Below are positions 5,657 to 12,298 of a stretch of DNA of 64,000 nt, in pieces. Position 1 is the first letter of the stretch. Each line of letters starts with the position of its first letter. The stretch lies in assembly GCF_016887565.1 (NCBI RefSeq), contig NZ_CP069396.1, forward strand, positions 12,940,001 through 13,004,000, given 5' to 3'. The position numbers and the translations under genes were made by a program. The notes below the pieces were generated by a model. That model saw nothing but the letters and a program-made list of their open reading frames with translations, was not told where the DNA came from and did not search any database. Source of the DNA: Archangium violaceum (GTDB lineage: Bacteria > Myxococcota > Myxococcia > Myxococcales > Myxococcaceae).

Positions 5657-8600
5657 GTGTCTCTGCCCGCGCTGCTCACCGCCGAGAACCTCCGTGCCAC
5701 CGCTGGAAACGCGTTCGCCCGCGGCGAAGCCTACTGGCGCGAGGGCCGTGTCCTCTCGTGCGTCCTCGAGAACGATGCCCTCGAGGGACTCGTCTCGGGA
5801 ACACAGCAATACCGCGTCCGGGTGTCCGCTCCGCGCGGGTCCATCGTGGCCCACTGCACGTGTCCGGCGTGGGATGGCGTCTGCAAGCACGCCGTCGCGC
5901 TCGGCCTCTCGTTCCTCGCCCAGCGCGGCCAGGTTCCCGAGACGCCCGACCCGCTCGACGAGATGCCCTCGGGGGAAGGTCCCTTCTCCACGCGCAAGGA
6001 CCTCGAGCACTGGGCGGAGGCACACCACGTCCAGTACGCGCTCTCCGTCTCCGCCGAGGTCCTCCTCCCGGATCTCCCCATCAACGAGCCCCAGCGAAAC
6101 GGGCTCCGGTACGCCCTGAACGGCCTTGCCCTCCGCGACGTCGGCTCGCGCGAAGGTGCGCTGCGCCACGGCGGCGCTCGCGGAAGAGGGCTCGAGACGG
6201 CCATCCCCGAAGCGGCCTGGGACTACCTGAATGCCGAAGCCACCTCGGTCCAGCAGGCCTTCACGGAGGAGGCCGCGCGCCGCGAACTCCACCCGGACGC
6301 CGCGCTCGCTCCGCTCTGGTCGCGTCTGCTCGAGCTGCGGCGCCCCCTCCGCGCCCAGGCCTCCCCGCGCTCCCGCGAGCGCCGCGCACTGGGCACCTGG
6401 AGCTTCGACGCCCAGGCCTGCGCGCTGACGTGGAAGGAGCGCGACCGCGTGGTCCGCTCCGGCCCCGACTACTCCACCGTGAGCGTCTCCGCGCGGCTGA
6501 CCTTCCCCGGTGGTGGCGCGGGACAGGCGGAGTGCAACTGCGCCGCCCGGCAACGCGGCTGCACGCACGTCCTCGCGTTGATCGACACGACCCTGGACCT
6601 GCTCGACAGTCCCCCGCGTGCCGCCGAGGCCCGTGCGCTCGCCGATGAGCTCCTCCGCCCGAGCTGGGCCCGTGCGCTCAAGGAGCTCGAGCTCTTCGAG
6701 GCCGCGGCCGCGAAGCCTCGCGCCTCCATCGAGGTGTGGTGGTGCATCGAGCACGAGCTCGGAACGCTCACCGTCTCTCCGCTCGTGAAGAAGCAGACGC
6801 GTCGCGGAACGCTCAGCACGGGCGCGCGGATGACGGCGGCCCGGCTGCTCGAGGAGCACCGGGAGCTGCTGTCCGAAGCGGATCTTCGAATCGCCGAGCA
6901 CCTCGCCTCATGGGCTCCCGCCTCGCGGGCCGCGGGAACGTACCCCTCGCGGGCCTTCCTCGCGCTCGCCGGTCATCCCCGGGTCGTGGTGGAGCTCCGT
7001 CCGGACGAGCCGCTCGAGGTGAAGCGCGTCCGGCTCGGCTTCACCGCCCTCGCCGCCGAGGACCACATCCGTCTGGAGCCCTCGGTGGAGGGAGAGCGCT
7101 TCAATCCGAAGCTGCTGGGCACCCTGCTCCGGACGTTCGCTCCAGGAGAGCCGCTGTTCACCGTCGAGGAGCAACGCGCGCGGTGCCTCCTCATCGACGT
7201 GAACGAGGAGGCGCGGCAGATGTGGAACGTGCTCGAGAAGCACGGCGACCGGTTCCCCCCCGAGAGCCACGAGCAGCTGCTCGAACGGCTGTCGCGGCTC
7301 GAGGCACGCCTTCCGCTCGTGGTGCCGCACACGCTCAAGGGCCGCGAGCTGACGACGGAGACGCGCACCGTCGTCCGGCTGCGGCTCCTGCCGGACGTGT
7401 CGCTGGAGCTCGAGCTGCTCGTGCGTCCGGGAGAGGGCGCGCCGCTGTTCCATCCCGGAGTGGGACCGAGGGACGTGCTCCTGTCTCACGGGGGGGAGCG
7501 CGTCTACGTGCGCCGGCAGCTCCTGAGCGAGGACGAGCGGGCACGCGCCGCGCTCGCCTCGCTTCCGCTCGAGGACGCGGAGGAAGGCCCTCCGTACTGC
7601 TTCCGCATCGGTGACACGGACGCCGCGCTGCGGCTCGTGGCCGCGCTGCGCGAGCCCCCCAACGGGCTCGAGGTCGAGTGGCTCGACGAGAAGCCGCACA
7701 TCACCTCCTCCGTCGGCCCCGAGGCGTTGCGGGTGCAGATCGAGCGCAAGCGGGACTGGTTCGGCGTTTCGGGCGAGCTGAAGATCGAAGCGGGCCGGTT
7801 GGAGCTCGCCGTGCTGCTCGATGCCGCGCGCAGGCAGAAGCGCTTCGTCCGGGTCGATGCCCATCGCTGGGTGGAGCTCGGTGACAAGTTGCGCCAGCGG
7901 CTGCTCGCGGTGTCGGACCACACGTTCATCGGCAAGAACCGCGTCGAGCTCTCCCCTGGAGCCGTGCCGGCGATCAACGCGCTCGTCGACGCGGGAGCGG
8001 AGGTCAAGACGGCTCCCGCGTGGCGGTTGCTGACGGAGCGGCTTGCCACCTCGCTCTCGTTGAAGCCCAAGCCGCCCAAGGCGCTCGCGACGACGCTCCG
8101 GGACTATCAGGTGGAGGGGCACGCGTGGCTCAGCCGCGTTGCCGCCTGGGGCGCGGGGGCGTGCCTCGCCGACGACATGGGGTTGGGGAAGACGGTGCAG
8201 GCCATCGCCATCCTGCTCGACCGGGCGCGGCTCGGCCCCGCGCTCGTGCTCGCGCCGACGTCGGTCGCCTACAACTGGGTGCAGGAGCTCGAACGCTTCG
8301 CGCCGGGGCTCCGGCCGGTGCTCTACGCGGACCAGGCCGACCGGGCGAAGTGCCTCACGGGGCTCGAGAAGAACGACGTGCTGATCGTGAGCTACGGACT
8401 GCTCGTGCGCGATGCGGCGAGTCTCGGCGCGGTCTCGTTCTCCACGCTCGTGGTCGACGAGGCCCAGGCGCTCAAGAATCCGAACACGCGGCGCGCACGC
8501 GCGGCGCGGCAGCTGCAGGCGGGGTTCCGGATCGCCCTGTCGGGCACGCCGCTGGAGAACCACCTCGGCGAGCTGTGGAGTCTGTACACCATCGTCTTTC

Positions 8601-9532
8601 CGGGCCTGCTCGGGAGCTGGGAGCAGTTCCGCGAGCGCTTCGCCGCGCCCATCGAACGCGGGAAGGATCCCGATGCGCGAGCCGCGCTCTCTCGTGTGCT
8701 GCGGCCCTTCCTGCTGCGACGCACGAAGCAGGAGGTGGCGCGCGAGCTGCCCTCGCGCACGGAGATACAGGTCCCGGTCGCGCTCTCCGAGGAGGAGTGG
8801 ACGCTGTACGAGGACGCGCGCCTGGCGGCGGTCGCCGAGGTGAGCACCGAGGGCAAGGGGCTGCGCAACGAGCAGCAGCGCTTCCAGGTGCTCGCGGCAC
8901 TGACCCGGCTGCGCCTGCTGGCGTCGCATCCGCGGCTCTACGACTCACAGTCCAGCGTGACCTCGTCGAAGATGCGGCGACTGATGGAGCTGCTCGAGGA
9001 ACTGCGCAGCGAGGGGCACCGGGCGCTCGTCTTCAGCCAGTTCACCTCGCATCTGGAGCTCGTCCGCGAGGAGCTGGGGCGCGCCGGCTTCAAGTACCTG
9101 TACCTCGATGGCTCGACGCCGGCGGGCGCGCGGGCCAAGAGGATCCAGGCGTTCCAGGATGGGGAGGGCGAGGTGTTCCTCATCTCGCTCAAGGCGGGCG
9201 GCACGGGCATCAATCTCACCGCGGCCGACTACGTCATTCATCTGGACCCGTGGTGGAACCCGGCGGTCGAGGACCAGGCCACGGATCGAGCGCACCGCAT
9301 CGGTCAGACGAAGCCGGTGACGGTGTACCGGCTCATCGCCCGGGGGACGATCGAGGAGCAGATCCTCTCGCTGCACTCGGACAAGCGCGCGCTGGTGGCG
9401 GGGGTGCTCGAGGGCACCGACGTGGCGGCCCGGCTCACGACGAAGGATCTGCTCTCACTGCTCGCGGGGGGCGACTCTCCGCGCGATGCGGGCGACGACG
9501 GGGAAGAGGCGCCGCCCCGGATGGTGCACTGA
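5657..9532 (+). CDS. SNF2-family DNA helicase/translocase with two SWIM zinc fingers
   Basis: A 1291-residue ATPase. Residues 67-78 hold a SWIM finger (CTCPAWDGVCKH, CxCx6CxH) and a second SWIM-like finger lies near residue 293 (CNCAARQRGCTH). After a long middle region come the SNF2 motor motifs: DDMGLGKTVQAI (Walker A), VVDEAQALKNP (Walker B), LSGTPLENHLGELWSL, LRPFLLRRTK, VFSQFTSHLELV, FLISLKAGGTGINLT and DRAHRIGQTKPVTVYRLI. It should translocate on double-stranded DNA and remodel protein-DNA complexes; the SWIM fingers probably bind DNA or partners. The start is GTG at 5657 with a weak ribosome site. The gene is monocistronic and is followed 23 nt later by a perfect hairpin. Confidence 0.92.
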   Translation: MSLPALLTAENLRATAGNAFARGEAYWREGRVLSCVLENDALEGLVSGTQQYRVRVSAPRGSIVAHCTCPAWDGVCKHAVALGLSFLAQRGQVPETPDPLDEMPSGEGPFSTRKDLEHWAEAHHVQYALSVSAEVLLPDLPINEPQRNGLRYALNGLALRDVGSREGALRHGGARGRGLETAIPEAAWDYLNAEATSVQQAFTEEAARRELHPDAALAPLWSRLLELRRPLRAQASPRSRERRALGTWSFDAQACALTWKERDRVVRSGPDYSTVSVSARLTFPGGGAGQAECNCAARQRGCTHVLALIDTTLDLLDSPPRAAEARALADELLRPSWARALKELELFEAAAAKPRASIEVWWCIEHELGTLTVSPLVKKQTRRGTLSTGARMTAARLLEEHRELLSEADLRIAEHLASWAPASRAAGTYPSRAFLALAGHPRVVVELRPDEPLEVKRVRLGFTALAAEDHIRLEPSVEGERFNPKLLGTLLRTFAPGEPLFTVEEQRARCLLIDVNEEARQMWNVLEKHGDRFPPESHEQLLERLSRLEARLPLVVPHTLKGRELTTETRTVVRLRLLPDVSLELELLVRPGEGAPLFHPGVGPRDVLLSHGGERVYVRRQLLSEDERARAALASLPLEDAEEGPPYCFRIGDTDAALRLVAALREPPNGLEVEWLDEKPHITSSVGPEALRVQIERKRDWFGVSGELKIEAGRLELAVLLDAARRQKRFVRVDAHRWVELGDKLRQRLLAVSDHTFIGKNRVELSPGAVPAINALVDAGAEVKTAPAWRLLTERLATSLSLKPKPPKALATTLRDYQVEGHAWLSRVAAWGAGACLADDMGLGKTVQAIAILLDRARLGPALVLAPTSVAYNWVQELERFAPGLRPVLYADQADRAKCLTGLEKNDVLIVSYGLLVRDAASLGAVSFSTLVVDEAQALKNPNTRRARAARQLQAGFRIALSGTPLENHLGELWSLYTIVFPGLLGSWEQFRERFAAPIERGKDPDARAALSRVLRPFLLRRTKQEVARELPSRTEIQVPVALSEEEWTLYEDARLAAVAEVSTEGKGLRNEQQRFQVLAALTRLRLLASHPRLYDSQSSVTSSKMRRLMELLEELRSEGHRALVFSQFTSHLELVREELGRAGFKYLYLDGSTPAGARAKRIQAFQDGEGEVFLISLKAGGTGINLTAADYVIHLDPWWNPAVEDQATDRAHRIGQTKPVTVYRLIARGTIEEQILSLHSDKRALVAGVLEGTDVAARLTTKDLLSLLAGGDSPRDAGDDGEEAPPRMVH

Positions 9533-9579: not shown

Positions 9580-9884
9580 GCTCGGCTTCACGCCCGGAAG
9601 CCTCTCCGCGTGTCGCCCACGTCGAGCGCCACGACACGCGCGAACGGCGGGGCACCTCCCCTTTTAGTGGCAAGAGACACCTTCCGCTCCGAGACATGCG
9701 CGGCGCGGAAAGCCACGCCGGTCTCGGCATGCGAACAATGACTCGTGGTGTCTCAGTGGCTCATCATGGATCAGGCAAACCGGTCCTCGCGACTTGACTG
9801 TGCCGTCGAGGACCGGCTCCCCAATCCCTATCCCCATACCCCTGAGCCGGCTTCACGAGTGGCCTTCGCCGCTCGTCACAGCCT

Positions 9885-10190
9885 TTACTGCCCCAACCCG
9901 CCCTACCCCTTACTGCTCTGTACTACCCGTACTGCCCCAACCCCGTACTGCCCCAACCCGCCCTACCCCAACCCCGTACTGCCCAACCCGCCCTACCCCA
10001 ACCCCGTACTGCCCAACCCGCCCTACCCCAACCCCGTACTGCCCCAACCCGCCCTACCCCTTACTGCCCGACCTGCCCCAACCCGCCCTACCCCTTACTG
10101 CCCCAACCCGCCCTACCCCTTACTGCCCCAACCCGCCCTGCCCCTTACTGCCCCGACCCGCCCTACCCCTTACTGCCCGACCTGCCCCGA
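9885..10190. repeat. C-rich minisatellite with G-quadruplex potential
   Basis: About 300 bp of imperfect tandem units of two sizes: roughly 30 bp (CCCGCCCTACCCCAACCCCG plus TACTGCCCAA) and roughly 25 bp (the same core with TTACTGCCCC replacing the middle). Plus-strand C-runs of 3-4 are separated by 1-2 nt, so the minus strand reads G4-T2-G4-TA-G3-C-G3, a classic G-quadruplex pattern, repeated many times. G is almost absent from the plus strand here. Units are nearly identical in places, which implies recent slippage or homogenisation. The function is unknown. Confidence 0.85.
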
Positions 10191-10551
10191 ACTTCCGTCG
10201 ACCCCTGTCGACCACGGGGAAGAGCTTTAGCATTCGCCGTGCCGACCTCCCGCGAGGCCTGAAGCTCCTGTGATTTCAAGCAGATAGGGGACGAGACCAG
10301 GGGCGACTCCAGGGCAATTGCACAGGCATCCTGTAAAAAAGCCACCCCCTCCCATTCCGGCCCTTCCGGCCCGGTCCTCGCCGCGGCCGTGCTCGAGGGA
10401 CGAGCCCCCGCGGGTGGCAGCGGGGGCGCTCCATTTCGCCGCATAAAACCCGAAAAAATGGGCCTCGGCTCCATAGGGGGCGTCGAGTCTCCGCTCGAAA
10501 GAGAGAGGCCCGACCCTCTCGAATTCTCTCAAACCCAGACTGGAGATTGGC

Positions 10552-10953
10552 ATGAACAAGACTCTCGTTCGTCGAGCCGCCATTGCCTTGACCACCATGG
10601 GCCTGCTTGGCCTGACGGGAACCCTGGTGGTGCCGTCCGCCAATGCCTCTCAGATGAGCGCCCTGGCCACCTGCAACGCGACCTGGTACGGAGCCGAGGG
10701 CGAAATCCCCGAGGGATGGCCGACCGCCAGCGGTGAGCCCTTCAGCCGGTGGGCGCTCAAGGCAGCACACAACTCGCTGCCGTTTGGCACCCGGGTCAAG
10801 GTGACCTACCAGGGACGCTCTGTCACCGTGACCATCAATGACCGTGGGGGCTTTGGCGGCTCGACCTGCCTGGACCTCACCTACGGCGCGTTCATCCAGA
10901 TCGCCAATCCCGACCTCGGTGTCATCCCCGTGCAGTACGAGATTCTCCGGTGA
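10552..10953 (+). CDS. Small secreted RlpA-like double-psi beta-barrel protein
   Basis: A 133-residue exported protein. Residues 1-32 form a Sec signal peptide (basic start, hydrophobic core, cleavage near NASQ). The rest is one RlpA-like double-psi beta-barrel: ATWYGAEGE, the LKAAHNSLPFGTRVKVTYQG strand region and VTVTINDRGGFGG, corresponding to the VxINDRGP motif of RlpA lytic transglycosylases and endoglucanase-like barrels. There is no SPOR domain and no lipobox, so it is a minimal secreted version rather than classical RlpA; a peptidoglycan role is only an inference. Start: ATG with GGAG 9 nt upstream. Confidence 0.85.
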   Translation: MNKTLVRRAAIALTTMGLLGLTGTLVVPSANASQMSALATCNATWYGAEGEIPEGWPTASGEPFSRWALKAAHNSLPFGTRVKVTYQGRSVTVTINDRGGFGGSTCLDLTYGAFIQIANPDLGVIPVQYEILR

Positions 10954-11068: not shown

Positions 11069-12298
11069 TCAGCCCGGGGCGGGCGCTCCTGCTTCATCCG
11101 CCGCCGGGCGGCCGGGGGAAGGCTCCGGCCCGCTCTCGAACTCGACGCGGGCGTGCTCCATCACATGGTCCACGGCCAGCAGGTGCATGGCGGCATCCCG
11201 GATGGGCCCGGCTGTCTGGGGATCCGCCAGCGCCTGGCGCGCCTCCTCCGGGCTCAGCCCGAACGGCTCCACCGCGTCATCGACGAGCGCCTCCAGCTTC
11301 TCCGGCGTCAGTTGGAGCTTGTCCCGCTCCACGATGGCCCTCAGGGCGAGCGCGATCCGCAGGCTCCGCTCCGCCTCCCGCCGCGTGGAGGCGTCGCCCA
11401 GCCAGCCGTCGAGCGACTCCTTCAACTCGTCCGCGTCGAAGTCCTTCGCCCGCAGCAGGGGCAGCTCTCCCTCCTCCCACCGCCGACGGATCTCCTCGTC
11501 CACCAACTCGGGTGGCAGGGACACCTCCCCGGTCCTCCGCACCAGCTCGTCCATGACGAGCTCCCTCGCCTCCAGCCACAGCTCCTCGGCGAGCTCCTCC
11601 TCCAGGTCGTCCGCGATCGACTCCATCACCTTGTCCACCGTCTGGCCGCGCTCGAGCTCCTGGATGAACTCCTGGCTCTCCGGGTCTGGCAGCGTCACCT
11701 CCTGGGCCCCCAACACGTCCACCAGGAAGGTCGCCTTCACGCCCCGCAGGTCCTCCACCGGGTAGTCCTCCGGCAGGGTGAGCTCCACCTCCCGGTTCTC
11801 GCCGACCGGTGTGCCCACCAGCGCCTCGCTGAAGCCTGGGAGGAAAGCCTGAGCGTCCAGCTCCAGTTCCAGCTCGCTCCGCGCACTGAAGGGGATGAGC
11901 CGCCCCTCGGCGTAGCCCAGCGTCTCCAGGAGCACCAGGTCTCCCATTCGCACCGGCTCCCCTGGCGCCCGCTCCCTCTTCCGCGCGTACTCGAGCATCA
12001 GCTCGTGGAAGCGCTCCAGCACATCCTGCTCGGTGATGTCCTCGGGAGCCGGAACGGTGACGTGCAGGTCGTCGAGCGAGGGCGCCCGCACCACGGGCAG
12101 CACGAGCTGACGCCCTGACGCGCTCGCCGGGGGTGGCGCCTGCCGCTGCTCGACCGGCTCCTTCTTCTTCTGCGCCTGCTGGGGCGGCTTCGGCTCCGGC
12201 TTGATGGGCTGCTTCCGCGCCTGTTGGGTGGGGGCGGCCTTGCTGGAGCCCGGACTCTGGCCCTTCGTTCCCGCCTTACCGTCGGATGGATTGCTCAT
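11069..12298 (-). CDS. Trigger-factor-like peptidyl-prolyl isomerase/chaperone
   Basis: A 409-residue protein. The first ~65 residues are a disordered Lys/Pro/Gln-rich tail. Residues ~75-215 resemble a trigger-factor FKBP module (DLVLLETLGYAEG, FLPGFSEALVGTPVGENREV, LTLPEDYPVEDLRG). Residues ~220-390 resemble the helical chaperone arms. The ribosome-docking signature of true trigger factor (GFRxGKxP) is absent, so it probably does not sit at the ribosome exit in the usual way. The start has AGGA 7 nt upstream. The basic protein gene lies 35 nt upstream on the same strand, so the two are probably co-transcribed and may be a chaperone/client pair. Confidence 0.75.
   Translation of the reverse strand: MSNPSDGKAGTKGQSPGSSKAAPTQQARKQPIKPEPKPPQQAQKKKEPVEQRQAPPPASASGRQLVLPVVRAPSLDDLHVTVPAPEDITEQDVLERFHELMLEYARKRERAPGEPVRMGDLVLLETLGYAEGRLIPFSARSELELELDAQAFLPGFSEALVGTPVGENREVELTLPEDYPVEDLRGVKATFLVDVLGAQEVTLPDPESQEFIQELERGQTVDKVMESIADDLEEELAEELWLEARELVMDELVRRTGEVSLPPELVDEEIRRRWEEGELPLLRAKDFDADELKESLDGWLGDASTRREAERSLRIALALRAIVERDKLQLTPEKLEALVDDAVEPFGLSPEEARQALADPQTAGPIRDAAMHLLAVDHVMEHARVEFESGPEPSPGRPAADEAGAPAPG

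Follow-up and report, generated by a model that had tools for sequence, protein, structure and literature searches.

A C-rich repeat array of Archangium violaceum as the probable body of a sigma-54-dependent, G-rich non-coding RNA gene of a Myxococcaceae family

The 64,000-nt stretch of Archangium violaceum DNA analyzed here (the window) contains an array of C-rich repeats. With reasonable probability, we take this array to be the body of a non-coding RNA gene that is transcribed from a sigma-54-dependent promoter. The gene would belong to class A of a family found in Myxococcaceae, and its RNA would form a row of G-quadruplexes that serves as a platform for titrating a partner. Comparison of sequences makes it very probable that a non-coding RNA gene lies at the array; titration as the function of the RNA is a more tentative proposal. 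The predicted gene and its neighbors are made up as follows.

10270–10279, minus strand: upstream promoter element TTGAAATCAC, with its first nucleotide ~35 nt ahead of the −24 GG (pattern match; same offset in Pxr promoters)
10229–10243, minus strand: sigma-54-type core GGCACGGCGAATGCT, GG-N10-GC (pattern match; 97% identity with Archangium G005 in 10210–10239)
10197–10219, minus strand: leader CCCCGTGGTCGACAGGGGTCGAC, conserved among the class A members of Archangium and genus g11
9885–10195, minus strand: G-rich tandem body of 25/30-bp units, a string of G3-4 tracts in the predicted RNA (sequence, repeat and tract counts)
9771–9852, minus strand: conserved 3' domain (model R1), in which a stem CGGCTC/GAGCCG closes a G-run loop and is followed by a stem GTCCTCG/CGAGGAC
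9771–10218, minus strand: predicted class A non-coding RNA gene in full, ~440 nt (same order of promoter, body and 3' domain, on the same strand, in relatives)
10552–10953, plus strand: RlpA-like DPBB protein, divergent neighbor outside the unit (Pfam DPBB_1, E 2.6e-22)
5657–9532, plus strand: SNF2-type helicase with SWIM finger, convergent neighbor outside the unit (Pfam)

Results

The Array Is Part of a Larger Conserved Unit

Positions 9886–10190 are a succession of C-tracts with short spacers between them. Tandem Repeats Finder reported overlapping rows with periods of 15, 16, and 25 at 9926–10159 and a clean 25-bp array at 10073–10178 (4.2 copies, 96% matches), and the GC skew of the stretch (−0.67) is the most extreme among 300-nt windows in the 64 kb (mean −0.04, SD 0.13). 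The C-rich array of ~300 bp described in an earlier note on this DNA is therefore real, and the recent expansion proposed there agrees with the computed match rate; the units are near-identical to one another but unlike those of the Archangium G005 orthologue. Two further claims of the earlier note did not hold. Dense arrays were thought unusual in bacteria, which fails inside this family, as 13 of the 59 genomes searched have DNA similar to the array (counting the window's own genome, a single 13.2-Mb contig). The array was also called a minisatellite; it does not stand free but sits within a conserved unit that runs from a promoter to a 3' domain. In several genomes, the repeats terminate draft contigs.

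A protein-coding repeat gene was considered and rejected, given the 25-bp units, the stops on the RNA strand (3, 8, and 5 in the three frames over the array), and the lack of a Pfam match for a 161-aa plus-strand frame over the array. None of the three plus-strand frames is interrupted there, as is expected of C-rich DNA. Elsewhere in the window, six 126-bp tandem repeats at 10–770 appear by eye to be TPR-like coding sequence, and positions 11069–12298 (minus strand) encode a protein that resembles trigger factor and matches the FKBP_C and Trigger_C domains.

Identity between the genome of the window (G000) and G005, taken in 30-nt windows, is 97% at 10210–10239 and 93–100% at 9760–9879, the two ends of the predicted gene. 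It is 87–90% at 9670–9759, 70–93% at 10240–10539, and 43–80% below 9670. Across the sequences compared, the promoter, the 3' domain, and (in classes A and B) the G-tract pattern are kept, and the array units, their overall length, and the neighboring genes change.

A Sigma-54-Type Promoter Reads into the Array

The core GGCACGGCGAATGCT has the GG-N10-GC arrangement of sigma-54 promoters, with GGCAC and TGC boxes, and the upstream element TTGAAATCAC is probably an activator site. Being oriented toward the array, this conserved promoter would yield an RNA of the G-rich strand, with transcription presumably dependent on sigma-54 and starting near 10218. A sigma-70 promoter reading of the array region was tried and rejected.

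The same order recurs on the G-rich strand in relatives: TTGAAATNAC, a sigma-54-type core GGCACGNNNNATGCT, a short leader, a G-rich body, and a hairpin domain. In the 13.2-Mb genome of the window, the pattern TTGAAATCAC-N18-45-GGCACGNNNNATGCT has two matches, in the window and at 1322216, each preceding a G-rich array. With a slightly looser pattern, the 96 family genomes yielded 31 matches and the reversed control 0. Downstream of the 31 lay a G-rich body (25 cases), a protein frame recognized by eye (5 cases), or, in G085, directly the 3' domain. Thirty of the 31 matches became loci, and 25 were used to train a promoter model, R2; L037, L040, and L043–L045 were left out owing to protein frames downstream or a longer spacer.

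Two wider surveys relate the promoter to G-rich downstream sequence. Nearly the same pattern was found in 25 stretches of a named genome collection, 9 myxobacterial and 16 from other bacteria, and a G fraction of at least 0.50 in the next 200–250 nt was seen in 5 of the 9 vs 0 of the 16 (highest 0.32). Among the R2 matches listed with E ≤ 8.7e-6, all 76 sites were read over the next up to 250 nt, and 67 (32 genomes) had G of at least 0.42 and more than 1.4 times C, up to 25 of the 76 being the model's own training sites. A Myxococcus-type version of the promoter, which reads like CAAGTGCTTGGAAATGCTGG..CGGCACGCGCCCTGCTA and is followed by a G-rich body and a class A 3' domain, was matched 21 times across 96 genomes and never in the control; 19 of the 21 precede G-rich bodies, and two (G002 and G004) precede other frames. 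In genus g26, four of seven promoter matches have a contig end at most 50 nt from the core and a fifth within 151 nt, as if assembly had halted inside an array.

Related promoters also occur before other genes. Four g23 genomes carry TTGAAATCAC and a sigma-54 promoter with 9–10 bp of extra spacing (L040, L043, L044, and L045), upstream of a similar protein frame (ATGAAGCTCCGC or alike); the extra spacing corresponds to one helical turn, which suggests that the element is a true activator site. At L037, L277, and L278, the same promoter type reads into frames that are FHA-like by eye.

The RNA Family Comprises Several Classes

In 11 sequences of the class A 3' domain, 97.9% of cells pair, compared to 26–54% when the sequences are slid. 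The first helix is invariant and both-sided changes occur in just two pairs of the second helix, so the support from covariation amounts to those two pairs. Model R1 of this domain matched 42 of 96 family genomes at E ≤ 0.01, from Archangium to Myxococcus, with a single match in 32 of the 42. In a wider class search of 147 genomes (E ≤ 0.001), R1 was found in 40, all of them Myxococcaceae. Three genomes of the window's own genus (G001, G002, and G004) had no strong R1 match. The sequence after the class A stem is UUUGCC, not a U-tract, and a terminator scan gave no site there, so termination at this stem is presumed. By eye, the class A 3' domain of genus g15 loci L146 and L147 is followed in sense orientation by a protein frame whose start resembles a signal peptide.

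Class B, which is multi-copy, ends in a 12-bp hairpin with a T-tract; both partners of one pair have changed in 4 of 12 sequences. Its model, R3, matched 25 of 96 genomes at E ≤ 0.001; an upstream check of 30 R3 loci gave no value for 14. In some g23 genomes, the same promoter is followed by a class C RNA, rich in G and in hairpins, and three of these RNAs were folded; predicted hairpins of loci L041, L042, L096, and L187 expose loops such as GTGGGGG. Membership in an existing Rfam family was rejected, since the window and 11 related loci gave 0 matches at the gathering threshold. In a permissive Rfam scan, the best hit (E 0.049) lay outside the RNA, and a miRNA family reached E 1.7 over the 3' domain.

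The RNA Strand Is Patterned in Short G-Tracts

The earlier note had also placed quadruplex motifs on the strand opposite the C-runs, and G4 prediction bears this out computationally. The predicted transcript body (382 nt, minus strand) contains 46 runs of at least three G vs 29.4 in dinucleotide shuffles, and 11 non-overlapping G3+N1-7 motifs vs 3.7, so that four G-tracts with short loops recur beyond what composition gives; its mean G4Hunter score is +1.48. Dinucleotide shuffles are a generous null for such comparisons, since they break tandem repeats.

The pattern was then compared across 67 RNAs (61 distinct), consisting of 53 of 75 R2 loci (length at least 150, G above 0.42; the 76th site, in G098, was read separately), 8 class A RNAs found via the 3' domain, 4 of class C, and 2 from genus g26; the last six duplicate loci already in an unclassified group of 16. 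RNAs with no recognized 3' end were trimmed at 400 nt and may contain flanking DNA. Runs of 3–4 G exceed the shuffled number in class A (20 RNAs; 735 observed, 379 shuffled), class B (25 RNAs; 463 and 246), and the unclassified group (470 and 286), as do quadruplex motifs (148 and 60, 95 and 52, and 83 and 47, respectively). Runs of at least six G are depleted in class A (15 and 104) and class B (21 and 84). The four class C RNAs have no excess (tracts 108 and 107, motifs 8 and 11). GGGGCAG, CGGTACGGG, and CGGGTCGG are words that recur across loci, the GGGGCAG type being observed 144 times in class A (24 expected) and 74 times in class B (11 expected). Of 38 distinct loops captured from the 3' domain, 16 contain four G3 runs (2.8 expected); ~6 of the 38 are chance or reverse-strand captures. 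From these patterns, it is likely that the tracts of the array fold into a row of RNA G-quadruplexes.

The Promoter Resembles That of the Small RNA Pxr

Although trained without Pxr, R2 also matched loci that fit this Myxococcus small RNA. They were assigned to Pxr from the upstream activator gene, the loop, and tandem copies: a sigma-54 activator gene (Sigma54_activat and HTH_8) lies upstream, and the first hairpin loop is C-rich. Pxr copies are tandem in Archangium, and the genome of the window has four Pxr-like copies in tandem at 10863439–10864484 (L227), with a −24 box GGCATG, not GGCACG. TTCCCCCCCACC is present in 80 of 80 Pxr loops, partly owing to the search pattern, and a seven-C run presumably marks the site of a known mutation. 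Published accounts, with which these loci agree, place Pxr behind nla19/pxrR with a sigma-54 promoter and describe paralogues in Cystobacter (PMC5568312, PMC10217877).

The likeness extends to the upstream element. Of 79 distinct Pxr promoters (the full set, GGCATG cores included), 53 carry TG[AG][GA]?AA 33–35 nt ahead of the GG and 26 lack it at that offset. The Myxococcus-type class A promoters, themselves found via the 3' domain, have this element there in 8 of 8 cases. It is also found in 47 of 59 G-rich R2 matches, a figure that is circular because R2 was trained on the element. The window unit likewise combines a sigma-54 core with a TGRAA-type element ~34 nt before the GG, and its promoter GCTTGAAATCACAGG resembles one Pxr promoter of the same genome, CAAGTGCCTGAAATTACTGG. 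On promoter sequence, then, the window unit and Pxr are of a common promoter class. Both are also intergenic, occur in Myxococcaceae, and have several copies in Archangium. Membership of the window RNA in Pxr was nevertheless rejected: Pxr is ~108 nt, with three stem-loops, a C-rich SL1 loop, and no repeats, whereas the window RNA is ~440 nt, G-rich, and repeat-built.

These shared features bring up an alternative that we regard as unlikely but as the strongest of those considered, namely, that the G-rich RNAs act as sponges for Pxr or partner it directly, pairing with its C-rich SL1 loop (GGUUCCCCCCCACCCCUUC) and relieving the developmental block. Published work reports that Pxr function requires the SL1 loop (PMC5684412) and, in 2025, still called the targets of Pxr unknown, with pxrA proposed (PMC11928866). 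Pairing was assessed using RNAduplex, with 100 dinucleotide shuffles per RNA and a reversed-loop control. Class A was rejected as a specific Pxr sponge, as its duplexes are weaker than those of shuffles (mean z +1.5; control +2.1), and it avoids GGGGTGG (1 vs 19.5 expected) and GTGGGGG (1 vs 18.9). Outside class A, the outcome was mixed. Class B pairs no more strongly than its shuffles (mean z +1.0; control +1.3); the unclassified group has a mean z of +1.3. On the favorable side, GGGGTGG is in excess in class B (40 vs 20) and GTGGGGG in class C (11 vs 5), but GTGGGGG is not in excess in class B (19 vs 20). A 12-nt exact complement of the loop, GGTGGGGGGGAA, occurs in RNAs of G065, G071, and G076, yet in G071 and G076 the duplex is about as strong as in shuffles (z −0.2 each). 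The longest exact complements are 5–7 nt in class A of Archangium and g11 and up to 12 nt in other classes. GGGGAA and GGGGGAA, complementary to the exposed loop, were observed 25 and 7 times in class B (13.5 and 7.8 expected) and 11 and 4 times in class A (6.7 and 3.8 expected).

The distributions also differ, with Pxr matches in 92 of 96 genomes, weak ones included, vs 42 for R1. Class B copies (R3, E < 1e-7) number 2–8 per genome in genera g1 and g11, where Pxr is tandem; in g15, where Pxr is single, there are 2–3 copies in four of seven genomes and none in three. Only weak class B matches were found in g23 (three genomes) and g26 (four, ~1e-6). A copy-number link between Pxr and the G-rich RNAs was rejected as proof, being a clade effect. 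With class A pairing below shuffle expectation, what holds is the promoter element in common with Pxr, and the sponge is only a rival to the reading of the array as the body of a quadruplex-forming RNA.

Discussion

Under the proposed mechanism, an activator common to Pxr, or similar to that of Pxr, would drive transcription from the minus-strand sigma-54 promoter, and the G-rich strand would be transcribed as a leader, a tandem body, and the 3' domain. The G-tracts would fold into a row of RNA G-quadruplexes, forming a multivalent platform that may titrate or store a putative quadruplex- or G-tract-binding partner, with a capacity set by the number of units. Action in trans as such a sink would fit the changing surroundings of the unit. 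It is flanked by RlpA-like and SNF2 genes in the window, kinase and heme oxygenase-like genes in G032, OmpA in G015, MFS and DUF4215 in G003, DUF488 in G027, and AcrB and histidine kinase in G101 (Pfam), and since the flanking genes vary among genomes, the product probably acts in trans.

A different view, which we hold to be improbable, takes the leader and 3' domain as the working RNA and the body as slippage-prone filler that expanded neutrally. The distance from core to 3' domain does range from 190 to 914 nt across seven g23 loci. Furthermore, L156 (G109) keeps the 3' domain with neither a promoter match nor a G-rich body, and at L050 (G085) the promoter directly abuts a weak 3' domain match, the body being apparently absent; the body is therefore not indispensable everywhere. 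Against mere filler, the G3-4 tract pattern and shared words are kept across genera and long G-runs are avoided.

Slightly less probable still is an element that works as DNA, in which transcription of the G-rich strand would form an R-loop and the displaced strand quadruplexes, leading to recombination or fork pausing. The pilE locus of Neisseria and the immunoglobulin switch regions are precedents, the promoter does read the G-rich strand, array length is variable, and several assemblies end inside the array. The conserved 3' domain and the hairpin with T-tract of class B instead point to an RNA product. Replication stalling or recombination, which the earlier note had suggested, is possible but leaves the conserved promoter, its direction, and the 3' domain unexplained.

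The remaining suggestion of that note, regulation of the rlpA-like gene, is not supported and, together with a role as leader of a downstream gene, is very improbable: the rlpA-like gene does start ~310 bp behind the promoter core and is kept in G005, and g15 has its sense frame after the 3' domain, but the array has a promoter of its own, divergent from that gene, the unit stands beside different genes elsewhere, and the window's next gene in the RNA direction (SNF2) is convergent.

Some known systems share individual features with the predicted RNA. Sponge RNAs of the CsrB/RsmZ type carry many copies of GGA in hairpin loops and bind CsrA. By analogy of working, the predicted RNA would also repeat a short module many times in one non-coding RNA, using serial G-tracts in place of the GGA hairpin loops for CsrA. 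The pilE G-quadruplex of Neisseria, which has a cis-encoded sRNA and functions in antigenic variation, similarly has a promoter adjoining a quadruplex motif; it is a single quadruplex, whereas the window has long arrays and a conserved 3' domain. The telomeric repeat RNA TERRA is a tandem G-rich RNA with serial quadruplexes, as predicted for the window RNA, but is eukaryotic and telomeric and bears no relation to it. A literature search, mostly outside subscription journals, found no description of such serial-quadruplex bacterial RNAs, and we know of no other conserved bacterial non-coding RNA family built from strings of predicted quadruplexes.

If expressed, these loci would constitute a conserved family of bacterial non-coding RNAs made of strings of predicted RNA quadruplexes. 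Pxr holds back, or gates, multicellular development in myxobacteria, and the promoter element in common with Pxr places the RNA family close to the point at which growth gives way to fruiting-body formation. It is conceivable, though doubtful, that the serial-quadruplex repeat RNAs are a counterpart of Pxr under the same activator, soaking up Pxr or a protein partner, and that the number of units would set the nutrient threshold for multicellular development.
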